This document shows positions 8,816-40,404 of a stretch of 42,522 nt of DNA, piece after piece. The stretch's first letter is position 1. The number at the start of each line of letters is the position of its first letter. Source of the DNA: Deltaproteobacteria bacterium (GTDB taxonomy: Bacteria > Desulfobacterota > Desulfobacteria > Desulfobacterales > JAFDCJ01); contig JAFDCJ010000214.1 of NCBI GenBank assembly GCA_019312835.1, positions 1 through 42,522 on the forward strand, read 5' to 3'. Under the pieces are notes generated by a model. It was not told the origin of the DNA, ran no database searches, and saw only the letters and a list, made by a program, of their open reading frames with translations. The position numbers and the translations under genes were made by a program.

Positions 8816-8897
8816 TTTTTTCCTGTTATCGTGCGTTAATAGCCAACAAATGAATTGTCGTAGAATAGCAAATTGCAGTGGCTTGTTTAGATTACGA

Positions 8898-9030
8898 AAA
8901 TTCCAAGCACCAATACTCAAATAACAAATAATACCCAAGCACCAATCTTCAATGATCCAAACCCGGTTTCGGTCATCAGCATTTCGAATTTGGGATTTGT
9001 TTGTAATTTGGTGCTTGTGTTTTGGGATTT
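8898..9030. repeat. AT-rich intergenic inverted element, caaataacaaat/aagcaccaat family, copy 1
   Basis: Left arm TTCCAAGCACCAATACTCAAATAACAAATAATACCCAAGCACCAAT; right arm TTGGGATTTGTTTGTAATTTGGTGCTTGTGTTTTGGGA is its approximate reverse complement. Confidence 0.7.
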
Positions 9031-24465: not shown

Positions 24466-24774
24466 AAGGAATGGATTCTATTTTAATTAAAAAATTCTTA
24501 GACAGGATTAACAGGATTTTTAGGATATTTGTTCCAGGCTTTCCGGATGAAAGCCTGGAAATTCCAATCGCCTTCGGCGATAGATTGGACGATACGAAAA
24601 AGTTATAACTGGGTGTCAAGATTCCCATAATTTGTTGAAGATATAACTAATCCAGAATAGTATCTTTTTCCGACGAAGTCGGATGGGTTTTCCTCATTTT
24701 CTTCAGGAAAATGCGAAACAAAGAAATCCTGTAAATCCTGTCTATTGCCTTTTATAAGATTAGAATCCATTCCT
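24466..24774. repeat. 309-bp intergenic element with nested inverted repeats and several internal hairpins
   Basis: 14-bp perfect terminal IR AGGAATGGATTCTA (24467-24480) / TAGAATCCATTCCT (24761-24774); inner GACAGGATTAACAGGATTT (24501-24519) / AAATCCTGTAAATCCTGTC (24724-24742); hairpin CCAGGCTTTC-cggat-GAAAGCCTGG (24534-24558); ATCGCCTTCGGCGAT; CCGACGAAGTCGG. Confidence 0.88.
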
Positions 24775-24805: not shown

Positions 24806-26629
24806 TTGACTGAACGCAGATTGCTTTTGGGAAATGAAGCCATTGCGCGGGGGCTGATTGAAAACGGGTGCGCCATTGCGACCGCTTATCCGGGTACCCC
24901 GTCTTCCGAAATACTGGCGGCGGTGGCCTCTTTTCAAAAAGAGAATAACCTGTCCATGCACACCCAGTGGGCCGTCAACGAAAAGATCGCCCTCGAGATT
25001 GCCTATGCCGGCTGCCAGACCGGTTTGCGTGCGGCAGTCGCCATGAAGCAAGTCGGCTTGAACGTGGCCTCCGACCCGCTGATGAGTGCGGCCTACATGG
25101 GCACCAAAGGCGGATTTATCGTGATCAGTGCCGACGACCCCGGGCCCATCTCTTCCCAGACCGAGCAGGACAGCCGTTTGATGGCCATGATGGCCAGGAT
25201 TCCGGTGCTGGATCCCAGTACACCCCTGCAGGCCAAGGAGATGGTCGCGCTGGCCTATGAGATCTCTGAAAGTTTCAAAACACCGGTGATGCTGCGCCCG
25301 ACCACCCGGGTCTGTCATTCGCGTCAGGACGTGGCTCTAGATAAGATCCAACCGAATGACAGGGAAGTTAACTTCGAGAAAGATCCCACCCGCTGGGCCG
25401 CCACGCCAAGATTCCGATTTCATTTGCACAAAGAAGTGGAGGAAAAACTGGCCGCCATCGCGCGTCACGAATCCACCCGGCCGGTGCGTCTCAACCCTGA
25501 TGCCAGAGCTTCTCGGGCAATTATATCTTCGGGGGTGGCCGCCGCCCACACCAGCGAGATTCTAAAAGAAATGGGTTTGTGGCAAACGATTCCCTTCTAC
25601 CAGGTGCTGCAGCCCTTTCCATTGCACAGTGAGGTTATCACCCACTGGATCGACTCTTATGACGAAATCCTGGTTATCGAGGAGACCATGGGGGTCATCG
25701 AGATGCAGCTGGCGGATCGTCATCGTGTCAAAGGCCGGTCATCCCATACCGTCCCGGCCGTTGGTGAGCTTTATCCCGAAGACATCCAGGAAATTATCGC
25801 CAAGCTGTGGGGGGTGGAATTTGAACGGCAAGAGATACCCTTTGTTGCCGGGCGGCGTCCGACGCTGTGTGCCGGCTGTCCGCATCGCGCCAGTTTTTTT
25901 GCCATCAAAAAAGCTGCCCGCAAGGGGATCTATACGAGCGATATCGGCTGTTATACCCTGGGATTGAATCTGGGGGCCGTTGATACCGTTCTGTGCATGG
26001 GAGCGGCCATCAGCCAGGCGGCCGGCTTTTATCAGGCCTACAAAAACGACGAAAAGCGTCCGGATATTGTGGCCACCATCGGGGATTCGACGTTCTTTCA
26101 TGCCGGGATTCCACCCCTCATCGATGCGGTGGTTCAAAAGGTGAAATTCGTGCTGGTTATCCTTGACAATTCCACGACGGCCATGACCGGAAGCCAGCCG
26201 ACCCCAGCCAGCGGCCATGGGGCCTGCGGCGAGCCTCTGGAGGCCGTCGACATAGAATCCCTGGTCCGCGGTTGCGGCGTAAAATACTGCAAGAAAGGCA
26301 ATCCCTACCAGTACAAGGAATTTTTAGACCTCATGAAGGATGCGGTTAAATACAGTCGCGAGAACGGACCGGCGGTTGTGATTTCCAGGTATCCCTGCGT
26401 GATCGACCTGGCCAGAAAGGGAGAGATCACCGAACATATCCCGGTGGAAGTCACCGAAGACTGTGATGGCTGCGCCTATTGCGTCAAGCAATTCGAGTGC
26501 CCGGCCCTTGTCTACCACGAGGACGAGGAAAAGGATGAAAAACACGTCAGCATCGATCGCATTCTTTGCACGGACTGCGGGGTGTGTCTGAATGTCTGCC
26601 CGAAGGGGGCGATTGTGACCAAAAAATAG
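24806..26629 (+). CDS. iorA: indolepyruvate ferredoxin oxidoreductase alpha subunit (TTG start)
   Basis: GNEAIARGLIENGCAIATAYPGTPSSEI, PTLCAGCPHRASFFAIKKA, DIGCYTLG, TPP motif GDSTFFHAGI...LDNSTTAMTG, and C-terminal CxxCxxC...CP / CTDCGVCLNVCP ferredoxin motifs. Confidence 0.97.
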   Translation: MTERRLLLGNEAIARGLIENGCAIATAYPGTPSSEILAAVASFQKENNLSMHTQWAVNEKIALEIAYAGCQTGLRAAVAMKQVGLNVASDPLMSAAYMGTKGGFIVISADDPGPISSQTEQDSRLMAMMARIPVLDPSTPLQAKEMVALAYEISESFKTPVMLRPTTRVCHSRQDVALDKIQPNDREVNFEKDPTRWAATPRFRFHLHKEVEEKLAAIARHESTRPVRLNPDARASRAIISSGVAAAHTSEILKEMGLWQTIPFYQVLQPFPLHSEVITHWIDSYDEILVIEETMGVIEMQLADRHRVKGRSSHTVPAVGELYPEDIQEIIAKLWGVEFERQEIPFVAGRRPTLCAGCPHRASFFAIKKAARKGIYTSDIGCYTLGLNLGAVDTVLCMGAAISQAAGFYQAYKNDEKRPDIVATIGDSTFFHAGIPPLIDAVVQKVKFVLVILDNSTTAMTGSQPTPASGHGACGEPLEAVDIESLVRGCGVKYCKKGNPYQYKEFLDLMKDAVKYSRENGPAVVISRYPCVIDLARKGEITEHIPVEVTEDCDGCAYCVKQFECPALVYHEDEEKDEKHVSIDRILCTDCGVCLNVCPKGAIVTKK

Positions 26630-26720
26630 TTGGTTGAGTTGATTGAGTTGACTGGTTGATTAAGTTATTCTGATCCCTCAACTCAATTAACTTAATAAAC
26701 TTAATTAACTCAATCAACTA
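26630..26720. repeat. inverted element inside iorAB (gttgattga-type short direct repeats)
   Basis: AGTTGATTGAGTT (26637-26649) matches AACTCAATCAACT (26707-26719) inverted, plus degenerate copies in each arm. Confidence 0.85.
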
Positions 26721-28685: not shown

Positions 28686-28836
28686 ATTTTAAAATCCCAA
28701 ATCTCAAGCACCAAATAACAAATAAATCTCAAACGCCAATATCCAATGACCGAAACCTGATTGCTCTGCGTTTGAGATTTTGAATTTTGATCATTGTAAT
28801 TTATTTGATATTTGGGATTTGTTATTTGGAATTTAA
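28686..28836. repeat. AT-rich intergenic inverted element, caaataacaaat family, copy 2
   Basis: Left arm TTAAAATCCCAAATCTCAAGCACCAAATAACAAATAAATCTCAAACGCC; right arm CGTTTGAGATTTTGAATTTTGATC...TATTTGGGATTTGTTATTTGGAATTTAA. Confidence 0.75.
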
Positions 28837-31686: not shown

Positions 31687-31802
31687 AACCACGGAGGGAC
31701 ACGGAAAACCACGGAAATTCACAGGAAAAATAATAATATCTTATTAGTTTTCGCTGCAGGCGAAATAATGATCCAGTGTATTTCCGTGAAAAATCCGTGG
31801 TT
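31687..31802. repeat. CACGGA-array inverted element, copy 1
   Basis: CACGGA at 31690, 31700, 31710 and CACAGGA at 31720 (10-bp period); TTCGC-tgcag-GCGAA hairpin; TCCGTG at 31783 and 31794. Confidence 0.88.
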
Positions 31803-31892
31803 AAAAAAGCCTAACTAATTTGACTTTAATGGCTCAAAAAGCATAATAACAAAACATAAAATTAGAAAACTACTTAAATAAAGGAGGCTGTC

Positions 31893-33047
31893 ATGGAGCT
31901 GCAGTCATACAGGGCAGAGGATTTGTTTGAATGGGTTACCGGTGAAGGACATGACTTTACCTTGCTGGATGTGCGCAACAACGAAGAGTTCGGCCGATTT
32001 AAAGTCGAGGGGCCCTATCTGTCAAAAATGATCAACATCCCTTATATGGAATTTATCGAAAAGGAAGCTGAATCCGTGGCCCAGGTTCAAGTCCCCAAGC
32101 AGGAAAGTATCCGCATTGTCTGCGCCAAAGAAGGCTCCGCCAAATATGTTGGTGAAATTCTGGTAAACAATGGGTGGAAGGATGTCAGATATCTGGCGGA
32201 AGGGATTAAATCCTGGGGCAACATGCTCGCCCCGAAACTGGTGGCAGCGCCAAACGGGTATGAGCTTTACCAGTTTATTCGTCCCGGCAAAGCCAGCTGC
32301 AGCTACGGTCTGATTTTTGAAGATGAGATGGCCGTATTTGACCCGTCGCGCAACGCTCAATTTTATCAAGATTTTGCCAATGAACACGGCGCCCGGATTG
32401 TCAAAACCTTTGAAACCCATCTGCAGGCCGACTATATATCCGGCAGCCAGCAGATTTCCACCGCTACGGGGGCCCAGATTGTCGGGCACGCGAACGATTT
32501 TAAAGACGCCACCTTTGAATACAAAAACCTCGATGACCACGAGATTTTTAAATTTTCAAAAGGGGGCCCGGAGATCGAGGCTATCCACATGCCGGGACAC
32601 ACCCCCGGAAGCACCTCCTATCTCATTGACAAGAAATACATGGCGACCGGGGATACGATTTTTATTCTCTCCATCGGTCGTCCCGACCTGGGGGGGATGG
32701 CCGAAGACTGGTCCAAAATGCTTTATAATACCCTTAAAACCAAAATTGCCGAATTAAACGACGACCTCGTTATTTTACCCGGACACTACATCGAATGGGC
32801 CGAGGCCAACGCGCAGCAGATGTTTATCGATACCCTGGGCAGCATCAAAAATAAGAATGCCGATATTTACGGTATCGACAATGAGGCGGATTTTGTCCGC
32901 TTTATCAAAGACAACATGCGTAAGCAACCCGATGAGTACGCCCAGATCCGCAAGGTCAATGCCGGATTACTCGAAGTCGACGATGAAGACCAGGAAATGA
33001 TGGATCTGGGAAAAAATGAATGTGCTGCCAGCATGCATGGCAGATAG
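31893..33047 (+). CDS. rhodanese / metallo-beta-lactamase fold fusion protein (persulfide-dioxygenase-like)
   Basis: N-terminal rhodanese-like domain (FTLLDVRNNEEFGRFKVEG; IRIVCAKEGSAKYV); MBL region ETHLQADYISGSQQI, MPGHTPGSTSYLID, ATGDTIFI, ILPGHYIEW. Confidence 0.88.
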   Translation: MELQSYRAEDLFEWVTGEGHDFTLLDVRNNEEFGRFKVEGPYLSKMINIPYMEFIEKEAESVAQVQVPKQESIRIVCAKEGSAKYVGEILVNNGWKDVRYLAEGIKSWGNMLAPKLVAAPNGYELYQFIRPGKASCSYGLIFEDEMAVFDPSRNAQFYQDFANEHGARIVKTFETHLQADYISGSQQISTATGAQIVGHANDFKDATFEYKNLDDHEIFKFSKGGPEIEAIHMPGHTPGSTSYLIDKKYMATGDTIFILSIGRPDLGGMAEDWSKMLYNTLKTKIAELNDDLVILPGHYIEWAEANAQQMFIDTLGSIKNKNADIYGIDNEADFVRFIKDNMRKQPDEYAQIRKVNAGLLEVDDEDQEMMDLGKNECAASMHGR

Positions 33048-33230
33048 TGTCTCCCTTGGGCCAAAAGAAGCGGCAACATCAGTATTAGAACCAAGACTGG
33101 CGGCTAAAGAAGCGTCGTTTTACATCAAACGCCTGGTCTGGGGGAATACCTACCTGATGTTTGACAGGCGGCGTTTTCACGGCGATCTTATCAAAGGAAA
33201 GGGTGACCGCACAGAATTGTTCAGAAACGA

Positions 33231-33842
33231 TCAATCGATGGTGGCTTTTAGTTTTGTCCGGAGGTATTTCTGTTGAGCTGCGTATATCGCTTGAGACAGG
33301 TGCATGTGTCTGGCCATCAAAACGGTGGCTGCCTGTCCTGTCATTTCATAGAGGCCGATTTTGATATCATCAACGCTCCACAATCTTCTTCTTTCAACCT
33401 CATATCCTAACGGCCAGATGACGAGGCTTTCATTTTTGGTTTTTCCGGTTCCGTATCTTTTAATGATGAGCTGAAGCTGCTCTCCAATTTCATTGCACAA
33501 GGGAAAATCGTTAAGGCAGGTATCGGGAGGACCCCGAAAGATATATGCGACTTCGCATAATTGGTTTTTGAAAAAGTATAATTTCACCTCCGGATCATAT
33601 CGCTGATAGCGCGTGAGGTCTTTAATACGATAATTTTCCTTTTTCGTGAATATTCGGAGACCATCGGGCACTGAACTTTCAAGGTATTCCTGGTTGGACA
33701 GCCAGGGCAGTTTTACGAGCGGAAATTTTTTCGAACTATAGCCGTCTATCAGTGTCTCAAAATTTCCAGCGGCCGCATTGATTGAAAACCAGATGGAAGC
33801 CCATACCGTGGCGCAGATTATCTTTAATATGATTATTTTCAT
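33231..33842 (-). CDS. exported hypothetical protein, downstream of pqiC-like gene
   Basis: 203-aa ORF with N-terminal signal peptide (MKIIILKIICATVWASIWFSINAAA), 5 bp from the pqiC-like gene. Confidence 0.7.
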   Translation of the reverse strand: MKIIILKIICATVWASIWFSINAAAGNFETLIDGYSSKKFPLVKLPWLSNQEYLESSVPDGLRIFTKKENYRIKDLTRYQRYDPEVKLYFFKNQLCEVAYIFRGPPDTCLNDFPLCNEIGEQLQLIIKRYGTGKTKNESLVIWPLGYEVERRRLWSVDDIKIGLYEMTGQAATVLMARHMHLSQAIYAAQQKYLRTKLKATID

Positions 33843-33847
33843 ATATT

Positions 33848-34465
33848 TTACGGTACCAATCCCAGAACAGCTTCAGCCATTATGGTGCTCAGGGCCGCCA
33901 GTGCTTTGCTCTGGGCAGCGACCAATTCTTCGTACTTTGCTGATGCCAGGGTTTCACGGATGGTGGTGTTTTTGACCAAAAGAAGTTTGTTGTCCTTAAG
34001 ATCTTTAATGCTCCAGGTGGCGTCGATAAAAAATTCTTTGGCCGGCCGGCTGTCGTAGCGGTTGATATTAATCACCACCCGGTGGGTCGGGTGGAAGATA
34101 TTCTCGTGGGTAAAAGGTGCCACCCGTTCAGTGTCCAGCAGCTTTGCGACATTTTGCGCAATCACCGATGCAATGTCTGAGCGAAGGGGGCCGGCCCAGC
34201 GATGGTATTCAGAGAAGCTGACTTCGTTGTTGGCTTCCCGGGTGACAATCTCCGGCCGATCGTTTTCAGCGGGTATTGCAACCGGCCCGATGGCAAGGGC
34301 CACATCACGGGGCAGGGCCTTGTCCATGGCTGTCTGCTCAACCGGCTGCAGGGTGTAAAATTTGGCGGGTGGCGTTCTGCCGCCGCACGCGGTAAGGAGT
34401 AACATACCAGCACCTATCGTCACACATACCATCCGCCTTAATTTCACGTTGTTTATGTCTATCAT
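33848..34465 (-). CDS. pqiC: PqiC-like (ABC-type transport auxiliary) lipoprotein
   Basis: Lipobox LLLTACGG; KFYTLQPVE; ALAIGPVAIP; RWAGPLRSDIASVIAQNVAKLL. Confidence 0.88.
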   Translation of the reverse strand: MIDINNVKLRRMVCVTIGAGMLLLTACGGRTPPAKFYTLQPVEQTAMDKALPRDVALAIGPVAIPAENDRPEIVTREANNEVSFSEYHRWAGPLRSDIASVIAQNVAKLLDTERVAPFTHENIFHPTHRVVININRYDSRPAKEFFIDATWSIKDLKDNKLLLVKNTTIRETLASAKYEELVAAQSKALAALSTIMAEAVLGLVP

Positions 34466-36138
34466 TCTGTCGGTCCTTTCCCCCTGAGCAGTGATTCCGG
34501 ATGCCGCCCCAGGTAATCAATCAAAAGCCGTAATGACCGAGCCGCGGCTGTGATTTCAACTATGGCTGAATTCATTCTGACTTGCAGCGGAGAATCGGCA
34601 TTCAGCATTCGTTCGGCATTCGCCAGCGATTGGCGGGCTTCTTCAAGTACGGCGCTTATTTCCGGGGTAACATTGGTTCGCAGGTCGGACACCAGCAAAC
34701 GGGTTTCCTCCAGGGTGGCATTCAAGTTTTTAATGGCCTCCAAAATTTCAGGTGATTCAGTGAGTTGTTTGGCACTCTTGATCGTCTCCCCCAGGTCTTT
34801 TCCGATTTGATCGAGCGGGATAGCGTCTATTTTTTCGAGAATGCGCATGAACTTGGTGCTGATTTCCTCCATGGGTGTCGGCACCGTCGGAAAAACCGGA
34901 AGGCCTTCCTCGGATGCAAGAGTGGCCGGTGGCGCATTCGGGAAAAAATCCAATACCACCACCTGTTTGCCCGTCAGCAGGTTGCCGGTTTTCAGCTGGG
35001 CCCGAAAGCCTTTTTCCAGCAAGCTGGCGACAAGTTCTTGGCGCTCGGTGTCGCCGCCGATAAATCCGGCTTCCATCCACCGTTCCGACTCTATTTCGAC
35101 CAGAACCCGGATGCGGAAATTTGTGTTTTCCTGATCATAAACAAGTTTGACATCTATGACCTGCCCCATTTGAATTCCGTAGAACTCCACCGGGGCGCCG
35201 ATGTCCAGCCCTCTGACGGACTCATCAAAATAGAGAATCGCTTTGGTTCTAACCCAGTAGGTTCTCTCCTTGGCCGCGTCGACATTATGAAAGAGTCTGA
35301 AAACCGCCTCCTCCTCGGCAGGGGTATCGGGCACGTCCGCCTGGGGGATTCCAAAAGCGATGCCGCCGATGAGGATGCTGACCAGAGATTCGCTATCAAC
35401 CCGGACCCCCTGCGTATCCAGCTTGAAGTCGATACCGCTGGCATTCCAGAAGCGCGTATTCCGGTATACGAATTCATGATAGGGGGCATTGACGAATATT
35501 TTGAAATTGATGGTGTGGCCATCCTCGGCCAGGTCATACTTTACGATCTGACCTACCTGGATCTTGCGGTAATACACTGGCGAGCCGACATCCAGAGACC
35601 CCCGGCTGTCGGCCTCGAGGATAAAATGACGTCCCGGCAGATCGGTCGTTACCAGGGGCGGCTGTTCGAGCCCTTTGAAATAGTGGGTTTTATTGCCGGG
35701 CTTGCCGGGGTCCAGGGTGATATAAGCCCCCGAGAACAAGGTGCCCAGGCCGGAAACGCCGCTGACCCCGACCCGGGCCCGCACGACCCAGAAACGCGTA
35801 TTGACGGACAGAAAATTCTCGGCCTCCTTCACCAGCTCGGCCGTTACAACCACCTTTGATAGGTCCTCACTCAGTTTGATCGCGCTGACCTGTCCGAGTT
35901 CGACCTCCTTGTACTTGATCTTGGTTTTTCCGGCTTCCAGTCCTTCGGCCGATTTAAAGGAAATTTCGATTGTCGGTCCTTTTTCGGATAGCGTTTTATA
36001 GACCAGCCAGCCGCCGATCAGAACGGCAACCAGCGGAACCAGCCATACGATGGAAATCGAAAAACCGCGTTTGCGGTTTCGAACTTCCGCTTCAGGAACG
36101 TCACTTAACTCAGAGACATCTTTTTTCGGATCACTCAT
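34462..36138 (-). CDS. pqiB: PqiB-type MCE (MlaD domain) intermembrane transport protein
   Basis: Single TM (ISIVWLVPLVAVLIGGWLVYKT), repeated MCE segments (ISFKSAEGLEAGKTKIKYKEVELGQV; DSRGSLDVGSPVYYRKIQVGQIV; DESVRGLDIGAPVEFYGIQMGQVIDV). Confidence 0.95.
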   Translation of the reverse strand: MSDPKKDVSELSDVPEAEVRNRKRGFSISIVWLVPLVAVLIGGWLVYKTLSEKGPTIEISFKSAEGLEAGKTKIKYKEVELGQVSAIKLSEDLSKVVVTAELVKEAENFLSVNTRFWVVRARVGVSGVSGLGTLFSGAYITLDPGKPGNKTHYFKGLEQPPLVTTDLPGRHFILEADSRGSLDVGSPVYYRKIQVGQIVKYDLAEDGHTINFKIFVNAPYHEFVYRNTRFWNASGIDFKLDTQGVRVDSESLVSILIGGIAFGIPQADVPDTPAEEEAVFRLFHNVDAAKERTYWVRTKAILYFDESVRGLDIGAPVEFYGIQMGQVIDVKLVYDQENTNFRIRVLVEIESERWMEAGFIGGDTERQELVASLLEKGFRAQLKTGNLLTGKQVVVLDFFPNAPPATLASEEGLPVFPTVPTPMEEISTKFMRILEKIDAIPLDQIGKDLGETIKSAKQLTESPEILEAIKNLNATLEETRLLVSDLRTNVTPEISAVLEEARQSLANAERMLNADSPLQVRMNSAIVEITAAARSLRLLIDYLGRHPESLLRGKGPTE

Positions 36139-36778
36139 CGATCGACTCCTCAGTATCCCAAATCAACCGCGGGTCAAATGACATGGCCGCGAACATGGTA
36201 ATAATGACCACCGCACAAAAAAAGACGGCACCGGGCCCGGCCTGGATGGATGCCAGGGCACCCAGATTGACCAGGGCCACCAGGATGGTAACCACGAAAA
36301 TATCGACCATCGACCAGCGGCCGATGACTTCGGTAATTCGGTAAAGCCGCGTGCGGTCTTTCTGGCGCCACCTGCTTTTTCGCTGAACGGTTATCAGCAG
36401 GAAAGACAGCAAAAGCAATTTCAACAGGGGCACAAAAACACTGGCCACAAAGATAACCAGCGCAATCGGCCACATCCCTGAATAGATAAAATAGATGACG
36501 CCGCTCATAATGGTATCCGATTGTCCCTTGCCGAAAGAAATAACGGTGGTGACGGGAAGCACATTGGCCGGAATATAGAATATGAGAGCCGCCAGGACAA
36601 GCGCCCAGGTTCGGTGTATGCTGTTGGGCTTGCGGCTATGCAAACGGGTTCCGCAGCGCGGGCAGGTCATGACCGCCTCGGCATTGCTGCGGCGGCAGAG
36701 TAGATGACAGCTGTGGCAGCTTATCAAGCCCTGATTGAGGGCGGTTTTCAATGTCTGAGTATTTGCTTCTCTTCCCAT
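36131..36778 (-). CDS. pqiA: PqiA-like membrane protein (second copy in the operon)
   Basis: CHSCHLLCRR...CPRCGTRLHSRKPNSIHRTWALVLAALIFYIPANVLPV; start set at MGREANTQ (36778). Confidence 0.9.
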   Translation of the reverse strand: MGREANTQTLKTALNQGLISCHSCHLLCRRSNAEAVMTCPRCGTRLHSRKPNSIHRTWALVLAALIFYIPANVLPVTTVISFGKGQSDTIMSGVIYFIYSGMWPIALVIFVASVFVPLLKLLLLSFLLITVQRKSRWRQKDRTRLYRITEVIGRWSMVDIFVVTILVALVNLGALASIQAGPGAVFFCAVVIITMFAAMSFDPRLIWDTEESIDE

Positions 36779-37362
36779 TTTTCCCAAATCAAATGCGAAT
36801 CCATTGAAGCGGTCATGGCCGCCAGAATAAAAATAAGCGCCAAAAAGGAGAAAATGGCAATCCCGGGGACGATTTTCGCCATTTTCGCAAGCTTGACAAC
36901 GGACACCAGGATACCCAGCATAAAAACTTCCATCATACTCCACGGCTGCAGATGACGCACCCATCGAAATACCCGGGGCAGACCTGACGGGATAATGTTA
37001 AATTTGAGGGGTAGCAGGACGTACAGCATGCAAAGCATCTGACCCAGCGGCACCAATACAGTCGTAAGCAAAACTATCACCGACAGCTCAGGCATGCCCT
37101 GGGCATAGAGCTCCTGTATGCCGGTCAGCAGGGTGGTCTGGCGCACCTGGGCCTCCAGCTTGAACGCCAGAAAGGGGAACGAATTGGCCAGGGTAAATAA
37201 AATGAGTCCCGCCACCGTCAGTGCCAGGGTGCGCTCGATACTGTCTCGCTTTTTTTGATGAAGCACTGCCCCGCAACGCCTGCACTGAACCGTTCCGGGC
37301 TCAGTAATATGCGGCAATCGCTGAATTAAATCACAGTCATGGCAGGCAATAAAGGATTGCAT
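36748..37362 (-). CDS. pqiA: PqiA-like membrane protein (first copy in the operon)
   Basis: CHDCDLIQRLP...CRRCGAVLHQKKRDSIERTLALTVAGLILFTLANSFPFLAFK; stop overlaps the start of the second pqiA-like gene. Confidence 0.9.
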   Translation of the reverse strand: MQSFIACHDCDLIQRLPHITEPGTVQCRRCGAVLHQKKRDSIERTLALTVAGLILFTLANSFPFLAFKLEAQVRQTTLLTGIQELYAQGMPELSVIVLLTTVLVPLGQMLCMLYVLLPLKFNIIPSGLPRVFRWVRHLQPWSMMEVFMLGILVSVVKLAKMAKIVPGIAIFSFLALIFILAAMTASMDSHLIWEKWEEKQILRH

Positions 37363-37559
37363 ATTTCACTTTTAATATAATTGACTGAAATAAAATTTGA
37401 ATTTGATGTGTAGATTTGAAAACAGCATCCTGAAAATCCTGCGGGCGGGATTTAAAGATGCCTGAATTTTAACCCGGATAATAGAAAATATATTTTCGAA
37501 AGTCAAATGGCGTGAATTTATGAAATATTCCGGGAAAACAGTTGTTGACATGTGTTCAT

Positions 37560-37574
37560 TGTATACCGTATACA
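37560..37574. promoter_or_regulatory. GTATAC palindromic operator 3 (TGTATACCGTATACA), overlapping a possible promoter TTGACA(37545)-N18-TATACA(37569)
   Basis: Identical 15-mer to 20861-20875; upstream of the CaiB-type gene. Confidence 0.75.
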
Positions 37575-37711
37575 ATATACGACCCATTTGAGCCATTGCC
37601 ATAAAATAGCAATCGTGCCTTCTTTTCCTGAACCTGGCCCGGATAAACCGTAAAATGTCTTGCCGCATAAAGCAACAATATTAACATACAAATATTGAAC
37701 GGAGATAGTTT

Positions 37712-38902
37712 ATGGAAATACTCAAGGACCTTACCGTGTTATCCCTGGAGCAGGCCACTGTATTGCCCTATCTGACGTTTCGACTGGCCCAGGACGGCAT
37801 GAATGTGATCCGGCTGGAGCATCCGGTCTACGGGGACCCAAACCGGTTCATCGGCGACAATGTCCTCTCCGAGGAACGTATGAACGCCTATTTTTTATGT
37901 ATCAATGCCGGTAAGCAAGCCCTGACGTTAAACCTGGCCGAGGATGAGGGTCGTAAAATATTTCGCGCCCTGATCAAAGAACTGAATGTAGATATTTTTG
38001 CCACCAATCAACTGCCCAAAAATTACACGAAGCTGGGCATCGACTATGAAAGTCTCAGAAAATTGCGCCCGGACATCATCTGGCTCGGCGTTACCGGATT
38101 CGGTCCTGACAGCAATGAGGGGGCTTATGATCCCATATTGCAGGCCCGCTCGGGTTTAATGGAACTCACGGGAGAAGAAGACAGCAATCCCCAGGTTTTG
38201 GGAATTCCGTTGCCGGACATGGGTACCAGTGAACATGCTTACGGTTTGCTGATGAAGGCACTTTACACGCGCGAACGCACCGGCGAAGGCGCCTGCATCA
38301 ATCTGGCCATGTTCGAATCCTCGGTATCCTGGTTGACCGTGCCCATTACCTTGACGGACAGCTTTGGTAAAACCATCACGCGACGCGGCAACACCCATGA
38401 GTTCTTCTGTCCGGTATCGGTATATCAGACCAGCAACGGTTTTATCTATCTGGCGGTGGGCAACGACAGGCAATGGAAAACGATGGTCTCCCAGGAAATG
38501 TTTAACACTCTGGACCACCCCCAATACGAAAAAAATGCGGGCCGCATCGCCGATGTCGCCCACCTTAATGACGCGATTAATGCCATCACCCAACACCATA
38601 CCTCCGAAGAATTGATCGATTTGTTCACGTCTCTGACGGTGCCTGTCAGCAAGATTCAAACCGTAACGGAGGTGATTGCGGACCCCCTGGTGCAAAAAAG
38701 ATTGCTATATGCCCAGGATCCGGTATCGGGTATGCGAATTACCCTGGCACCGCCACCCAATATGACGCCTTTTCTGGAAAGTTCGAACCGGCAACTGTCA
38801 TTTCCTCCCCGCTTCGGCGAGAGCAACCAGCAAATATACGGACAACAGTTAGGCTATTCCGATGAGGAGTTGTCGCGCCTTAAGGAAAGAGGGGTTATTT
38901 GA
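37712..38902 (+). CDS. CaiB/BaiF-type CoA transferase (family III)
   Basis: MEILKDLTVLSLEQATVLPYLTFRLAQDGMNVIRLEHP...GDPNRFIG; LRPDIIWLGVTGFGPDS; YDPILQARSGLMELTG. Confidence 0.92.
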   Translation: MEILKDLTVLSLEQATVLPYLTFRLAQDGMNVIRLEHPVYGDPNRFIGDNVLSEERMNAYFLCINAGKQALTLNLAEDEGRKIFRALIKELNVDIFATNQLPKNYTKLGIDYESLRKLRPDIIWLGVTGFGPDSNEGAYDPILQARSGLMELTGEEDSNPQVLGIPLPDMGTSEHAYGLLMKALYTRERTGEGACINLAMFESSVSWLTVPITLTDSFGKTITRRGNTHEFFCPVSVYQTSNGFIYLAVGNDRQWKTMVSQEMFNTLDHPQYEKNAGRIADVAHLNDAINAITQHHTSEELIDLFTSLTVPVSKIQTVTEVIADPLVQKRLLYAQDPVSGMRITLAPPPNMTPFLESSNRQLSFPPRFGESNQQIYGQQLGYSDEELSRLKERGVI

Positions 38903-38941
38903 ATTGCAGATTTGTGATTTCGGGTTTAAAGCAAAAAAATA

Positions 38942-39047
38942 AACACGGAATGACACGGATTGTCACGGAAAAAATATAATAGTTTCAATTTTTTTCCGCC
39001 GCAGGCGGAATAATATTCCGGTGTTCCTCCGTGAAAAATTCGTGGTT
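38942..39047. repeat. CACGGA-array inverted element, copy 2
   Basis: CACGGA at 38944, 38954, 38964 (10-bp period); TTCCGCC-gca-GGCGGAA hairpin (38994-39010); TCCGTG at 39028 and TTCGTG at 39039. Confidence 0.9.
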
Positions 39048-40310: not shown

Positions 40311-40315
40311 CCCGT

Positions 40316-40404
40316 GAGTTCGTAAGTTCATGAGTTCATAAGCCCATGAGCAAATCTGCTCATCAAATGCTTATGAACTTATCAACTTACCAACTTATCA
40401 ACTT
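40316..40404. repeat. inverted element between the two mutase genes
   Basis: AGTTCATAAGC (40333-40343) / GCTTATGAACT (40369-40379); inner ATGAGCA-aatc-TGCTCAT hairpin (40346-40363); gtaagttcatga-type direct repeats. Confidence 0.88.

Follow-up and report, generated by a model that had tools for sequence, protein, structure and literature searches.

Two short intergenic loci built from regularly spaced CACGGA words lie in a contig of an assembly labelled Deltaproteobacteria bacterium, and raise the question of what kind of sequence they represent. The window (the whole stretch of DNA analysed, 42,522 nt) comprises positions 1–42,522 of the forward strand of contig JAFDCJ010000214.1 (assembly GCA_019312835.1; GTDB lineage Desulfobacterota; Desulfobacteria; Desulfobacterales; JAFDCJ01). 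The evidence described below suggests that both loci are probably non-autonomous members, similar to miniature inverted-repeat transposable elements (MITEs), of a group of short mobile elements whose full form carries a single gene of the GxxExxY family between inverted triplets of a short unit.

Element 1 (31687..31802, plus strand, 116 bp, with ends AACCACGG ... CCGTGGTT) has a left array (31690..31726, plus strand) of CACGGA at 31690, 31700 and 31710 followed by a degenerate CACAGGA at 31720, all at 10 bp spacing. Its inverted right array (31773..31799, minus strand) consists of TCCGTG at 31794 and 31783, 11 bp apart, and a third, degenerate unit (CCAGTG) 10 bp further inward at 31773. Element 2 (38941..39047, plus strand, 107 bp) has CACGGA at 38944, 38954 and 38964 in its left array (38944..38969, plus strand), and TTCGTG at 39039 and TCCGTG at 39028, again 11 bp apart, in its inverted right array (39017..39044, minus strand), with a degenerate TCCGGTG about 10 bp inward at 39017. 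The architecture is therefore three left units (plus a fourth, degenerate unit in element 1) facing two right units and a degenerate third, at spacings of 10 and 11 bp. Internal hairpins are found at 31750..31764 (plus strand; TTCGC-TGCAG-GCGAA) and 38994..39010 (plus strand; TTCCGCC-GCA-GGCGGAA), the latter also occurring at many further sites in the genome outside CACGGA elements. A sequence-only reading of this DNA had pointed out the left-arm words, the two hairpins and the AATAAT after each, all of which are present as it described. It had also placed TCCGTG words 11 bp apart in the right arms of both copies; the spacing holds in each, while the outer word of the second copy is the degenerate TTCGTG. 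A clustered regularly interspaced short palindromic repeat (CRISPR) array was ruled out, as there are no long repeats with unique spacers.

Single CACGGA words are no more frequent in the window than in dinucleotide shuffles (19 versus 20.2 expected), as might be anticipated if the loci were products of chance or low-complexity sequence. The phased pair CACGGA-N4-CACGGA, on the other hand, occurs four times against 0.02 expected, and pattern scans of the whole source assembly (6.0 Mb, 558 contigs) found 18 against one for the reversed-pattern control. These counts refute a chance origin, which can be given practically no weight. Within the assembly, N5 spacing occurs three times, the full range N0–N24 gives 37, and CCACGGA-N2/3-CACGGA is found once, indicating a preference of this genome for 10 bp, though other spacings occur. 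Further copies or lone arms occur on contigs C22, C100, C227, C323, C417, C422, C510 and C528, and the right-arm pair on C22 (CACGGATTTTTCACGGA) is identical to that of element 1.

The link to a gene came from outside the source genome. GxxExxY genes, which were presumed to lie often near repeats of this kind (taken as a lead only), encode proteins of about 125 aa belonging to TIGR04256/PF13366 (matches with E below 1e-42), a family without an assigned role. PF13366 genes are present in 107 of 194 genomes of the order, including the congeners G004 and G005, where they lie between inverted arrays of CGCAGAC units and of CACTAAG/CACAAAG-like units. A set of 165 distinct GxxExxY loci with flanks was assembled from the order and, through a profile search of an 84,980-species collection, from many phyla. 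A motif-free scan, scoring any 6-mer repeated at 8–12 bp upstream and inverted downstream, reached the cut-off score of at least 6 at 72.7% of these loci and at 1.8% of dinucleotide-shuffled flanks. With the unit pattern C[AG][CT]N[AG]A, arrays were found upstream of 120 loci, downstream of 126 and on both sides of 100 (0.5%, 0.2% and 0%, respectively, in base-shuffled flanks), and pseudo-genes placed along the window had arrays on both sides in 0% of cases. Nineteen loci have no array of this pattern on either side, several of them carrying arrays of another motif, such as ACAGGAT.

The 100 loci with arrays at both ends share a common organisation. Exactly three units are present in 83 left ends and 82 right ends. 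The motif varies from element to element (CACGGA, CACGAA, CACAGA, CGCAGA and others), yet it is the same at both ends of one element in 80 of 100 cases, against 15 by random pairing, and the spacing is the same at both ends in 65 of 75, against 17 expected. Spacings of 9,9; 10,10; 9,10; 8,9 and 8,8 bp were found. The exact 10 bp phasing put forward in the sequence-only reading is accordingly a property of this subfamily only; relatives show spacings of 8–10 bp that agree between the ends of an element, and such a pattern is not simple helical phasing. Units of one array are 93% identical to each other, and identity is nearly as high between the opposite ends of an element (92%), compared with 67% between elements. 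Six units that share one variant, which itself differs between elements, are what would be expected of a shared DNA-binding reader, and in this respect the earlier suggestion of selection on a protein-binding face is supported.

The alternative offered alongside it was RNA or DNA structure. In a fuller form, an RNA or single-stranded DNA structure would be selected (a terminator, a hairpin processing site or a folded element resembling repetitive extragenic palindromes, REPs) and the repeats would be the stems of a long hairpin, which can be examined by comparing the left and right ends position by position. Identity is concentrated in the units (93% versus 75% expected), the base after each unit (91% versus 54%) and the two bases ahead of the first unit (96% and 94%). 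It falls to 52% versus 38% in the remaining spacer and to the level of chance inside the third unit (33% versus 31%), and fades about 4 bases outward of the arrays, so a continuous stem is not the conserved feature. As RNA, element 1 folds strongly (z −6.05) and element 2 less so (z −2.58), although any inverted array folds well by construction; no Rfam match over the gathering score was found within the window. Significantly stable structure just inside the arrays is limited to 16–18% of ends (3–8% in controls), and the hairpin was rejected as a defining part on that account. Covariation of the hairpins between the two window copies, also claimed earlier, is thin, comprising a single compensated pair (T-A to C-G) along with a C-G to T.G change. 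It is better seen elsewhere, in one class with a constant loop (GGAGACGR) and differing but paired stems in six cases. Such classes favour a structural role, but as the object of selection structure is improbable, and the hairpins are accessory.

A further hairpin arrangement was noticed at five loci of the source genome (L013, L014, L015, L016 and L019). These carry a two-hairpin cassette consisting of a constant TTTTCCGCCGCAGGCGGAT and then a second hairpin with loop TTCYGG, the stem of which varies while pairing is kept (TCACTTTC/GAAAGTGA, TAACTTTC/GAAAGTTA, TTAGTTTC/GAAACTAA).

The arrays also follow the ancestry of the gene. Mapped onto the GxxExxY protein tree, the 6-mer motif requires 45 changes against 84 when shuffled (minimum 74), and the spacing 25 against 67 (minimum 57). 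Across host families, motif identity rises from 0.12–0.15 for proteins that are 30–60% alike to 0.92 for those that are 80–90% alike. Comparative analysis thus shows that gene and ends travel together; tree congruence alone is no proof that the protein reads the units.

Gene-less copies with matching ends, like those of the window, are common and form the second part of the picture. Fetched loci fall into two size groups, 70 short (72–311 bp) and 66 long (349–699 bp), which correspond to gene-less and gene-bearing forms, and still shorter gene-less copies, from about 55 bp, occur in G073 and G163. Genome G097, from the same order as the source, has 47 CACGGA arrays (control 0) and a CACGGA-class gene. 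Three of its gene-less copies (L295, L296 and L292) align at 77–92% with gene-bearing elements at either end, and when translated they finish with ...SPKVYIERFAL-stop, ...HPKIRIEGFAL-stop and ...KIFIERFAL-stop, respectively, which is the GxxExxY C-terminus. They also hold parts of the gene start, and the middle is missing. The sequences give direct evidence, in the window's own motif class, that internal deletion turns long copies into short ones. Separately, G006 contains a decayed GxxExxY element (L258), with the front of the gene deleted, at the site of the intact L101 of G004, a case of decay in place. An exact empty site for this G004 gene-bearing element was sought and not obtained, G006 having the decayed copy there.

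Presence and absence at corresponding sites point to mobility. Element 1 lies between genes for an enoyl-CoA hydratase and a rhodanese/metallo-beta-lactamase protein, and is absent from the orthologous spacer, with the same gene neighbours, in congeners G001, G003 and G006. Element 2, whose neighbours are genes for a family III CoA-transferase and a GntR/FCD regulator, is likewise absent from that spacer in G001, G004, G006 and G007. In G126, two gene-bearing copies (L115 and L116) are 94% identical and have unrelated flanks. Copy numbers also differ sharply between close hosts: within a single genus, the species G017 has 285 CACGAA and 6 CACAGA arrays, and the species G082 has 51 and 418. CACGAA arrays are more numerous in genomes that contain a CACGAA-class gene (median 16, the gene's own subtracted, versus 2; p 0.0002, in a test that ignores host relatedness).

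These observations bear on a regulatory interpretation, in which the arrays are operator sites through which a host or GxxExxY-encoded regulator controls the adjoining gene, the gene-less copies being ordinary regulatory sites. The intergenic position of the window elements would suit it, as would the spacing of units by about one turn and their constancy in each element, which suggest cooperative protein binding. Operators would not, however, be expected as inverted arrays on both sides of a gene, including past its stop, nor beside unrelated genes while missing beside the orthologous genes of congeners, and some gene-less copies keep pieces of GxxExxY coding sequence. This interpretation is accordingly given little credence.

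Several results weigh against the explanation by GxxExxY elements. Neither window element contains a GxxExxY gene or a recognisable remnant of one, so that their assignment as gene-less relatives rests on the ends, in architecture and motif, and the source assembly (93% complete) has no PF13366 gene, so that an earlier or missing source may have left them behind as relics. At the window sites, exact empty/filled junctions could not be defined, because the congeners are only about 70–84% identical there, and no target-site duplication above random pairing was seen among 68 gene-bearing elements. Part of the high copy numbers reflects local tandem repetition (G120, L153). In class-matched comparisons, CACAGA showed no association (p 0.59) and CACGGA a marginal one (p 0.07), again ignoring host relatedness, and the presence of any GxxExxY gene showed no association with an excess of CACGGA arrays (p = 1, 58 genomes). 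G073 has 19 CACGGA arrays and is not among the genomes listed with a GxxExxY gene. Finally, G at unit position 5 showed a strong raw association with a threonine close to where the first helix starts. When independent tree pairs were compared, however, several columns performed equally well, and all would fail once the number of columns was corrected for, so a residue–motif code is suggestive only.

Some of these points would fit a different mover, that is, a host or insertion sequence (IS) transposase, or repeat recombination, with GxxExxY as a passenger or parasite of the same ends. Arrays do occur in genomes with no detected GxxExxY gene, gene presence is not associated overall with CACGGA arrays, and a lone nuclease lacking a strand-transfer domain would be an unusual transposase. 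Set against this are the repeated finding of GxxExxY as the gene between the ends, the agreement of motif and spacing with its tree across host families, and the class-matched abundance for CACGAA. Movement by another enzyme is therefore considered unlikely, though less so than a regulatory or structural origin. In a search with one GxxExxY protein, relatives were seldom found among plasmids (8 of 72,556 records) or phages (two records, both of one virus).

What the protein might do is suggested by its predicted structure. The AlphaFold model (pLDDT 95.9) has a Cas4-like fold, its best PDB match by Foldseek being 4ic1, the Cas4 protein SSO0001 (E 3e-4), followed by LHK-Exo, MGME1, RecE and lambda exonuclease. 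The residues that are conserved in the family (D, ExK and QxxxY) are those of the Cas4/lambda-exonuclease-like nuclease group. Similarity to Cas4 in sequence is weak (Pfam, PADLOC): one GxxExxY protein scored 18.4 bits with Pfam Cas_Cas4, against a cut-off of 22.7, and two others gave no match. GxxExxY is thus predicted to be a PD-(D/E)XK nuclease that shares fold and conserved residues with these enzymes, and differs from Cas4 in its minimal size, its sub-threshold Pfam score and its position alone between repeat arrays.

With GxxExxY elements as the source of the window loci, the following scheme can be proposed. The GxxExxY protein would bind the units, one protomer per unit, and pair the two ends of the element. 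Its predicted nuclease activity would cut, and host repair or recombination would perhaps complete copying or transfer, the element being copied or moved into A/T-rich intergenic DNA without target duplication. Gene-less copies with matching units could then be moved in trans.

Systems of this general kind, with a gene-bearing element and gene-less satellites, are already known. REPs and REPINs with their RAYT (TnpA-REP) proteins also have one gene between inverted short repeats, dispersed gene-less repeats and a repeat that follows the protein lineage. RAYTs, however, are tyrosine transposases, whereas here triplets of a 6–8 bp unit at 8–10 bp accompany a predicted Cas4-like PD-(D/E)XK protein. 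REPs are described as 20–40 bp palindromes, most tagged with GTAG or CGTC at one end (PMC3733652). The window elements, at 107–116 bp and with AACCACGG-type ends bearing triplet arrays, do not conform to this. They do resemble MITEs in being short and gene-less, with inverted ends and multiple dispersed copies; as with MITEs, too, some gene-less copies of the wider family are deletion products of a parent that carries the gene. Classical MITEs come from DDE-transposase elements and are accompanied by target-site duplications; between the present ends, GxxExxY was the sole gene encountered, and duplications were not seen. The ends of Tn7 and Mu have several short transposase-binding sites each, inverted between ends, and TnsA of Tn7 is a PD-(D/E)XK nuclease, but Tn7 also needs TnsB and further proteins, unlike GxxExxY elements with their one gene of ~125 aa. 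No account that places GxxExxY genes in mobile elements was found in the open-access literature, although one may exist elsewhere. Three papers (PMC8934634, PMC9756366 and PMC12085832) name the family only in passing.

Other repeats in the window may belong to further motif classes. At 24467..24774 (plus strand) lies what is probably a third gene-less element, belonging to the ACAGGAT class, with a 25 bp outer inverted repeat, left ACAGGAT units 9 bp apart, right inverted ATCCTGT units and paired hairpins inside. The ACAGGAT motif also flanks GxxExxY genes in other genomes (L122, L138, L145, L148 and L221). Intergenic palindromic clusters with repeats at about 8–9 bp were seen at 26628–26720 and 40314–40398 (AGTTGATTGAGTTGAC... 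and GAGTTCATAAG...), possibly representing more motif classes. A 72 bp intergenic repeat occurs at 8897–8968 and 28691–28762; the two copies are 72% identical, contain AACAAATAA and CACCAAT-like words, and show a further, inverted match between both regions. Just downstream of a putative gatA gene, elements differing in motif class were found in several families (L001 of the source genome, L071, L076, L088 and L090), a possible insertion hot spot.

The array architecture, the co-inheritance of gene and ends and the origin of short copies by internal deletion are each demonstrated by comparison of sequences. That the window loci would correspond to the ends of elements which elsewhere bear a GxxExxY nuclease gene lay beyond the reach of the sequence-only reading. 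On a more tentative view, these elements may constitute a new class of mobile element, distributed across many bacterial phyla and some archaea, in which a lone 125-aa Cas4-like nuclease reads three iterons per end, needs no known transposase and has its own gene-less satellites. The many natural pairs of protein and motif make such specificity directly testable. If true, the new class would give the GxxExxY family its function. If the genes are element-borne and the protein reads the triplets, this would account both for a widespread family and for a large class of repeats scattered between genes, amounting to up to hundreds of arrays per genome, and would place a lone PD-(D/E)XK nuclease among the enzymes linked to DNA mobility.

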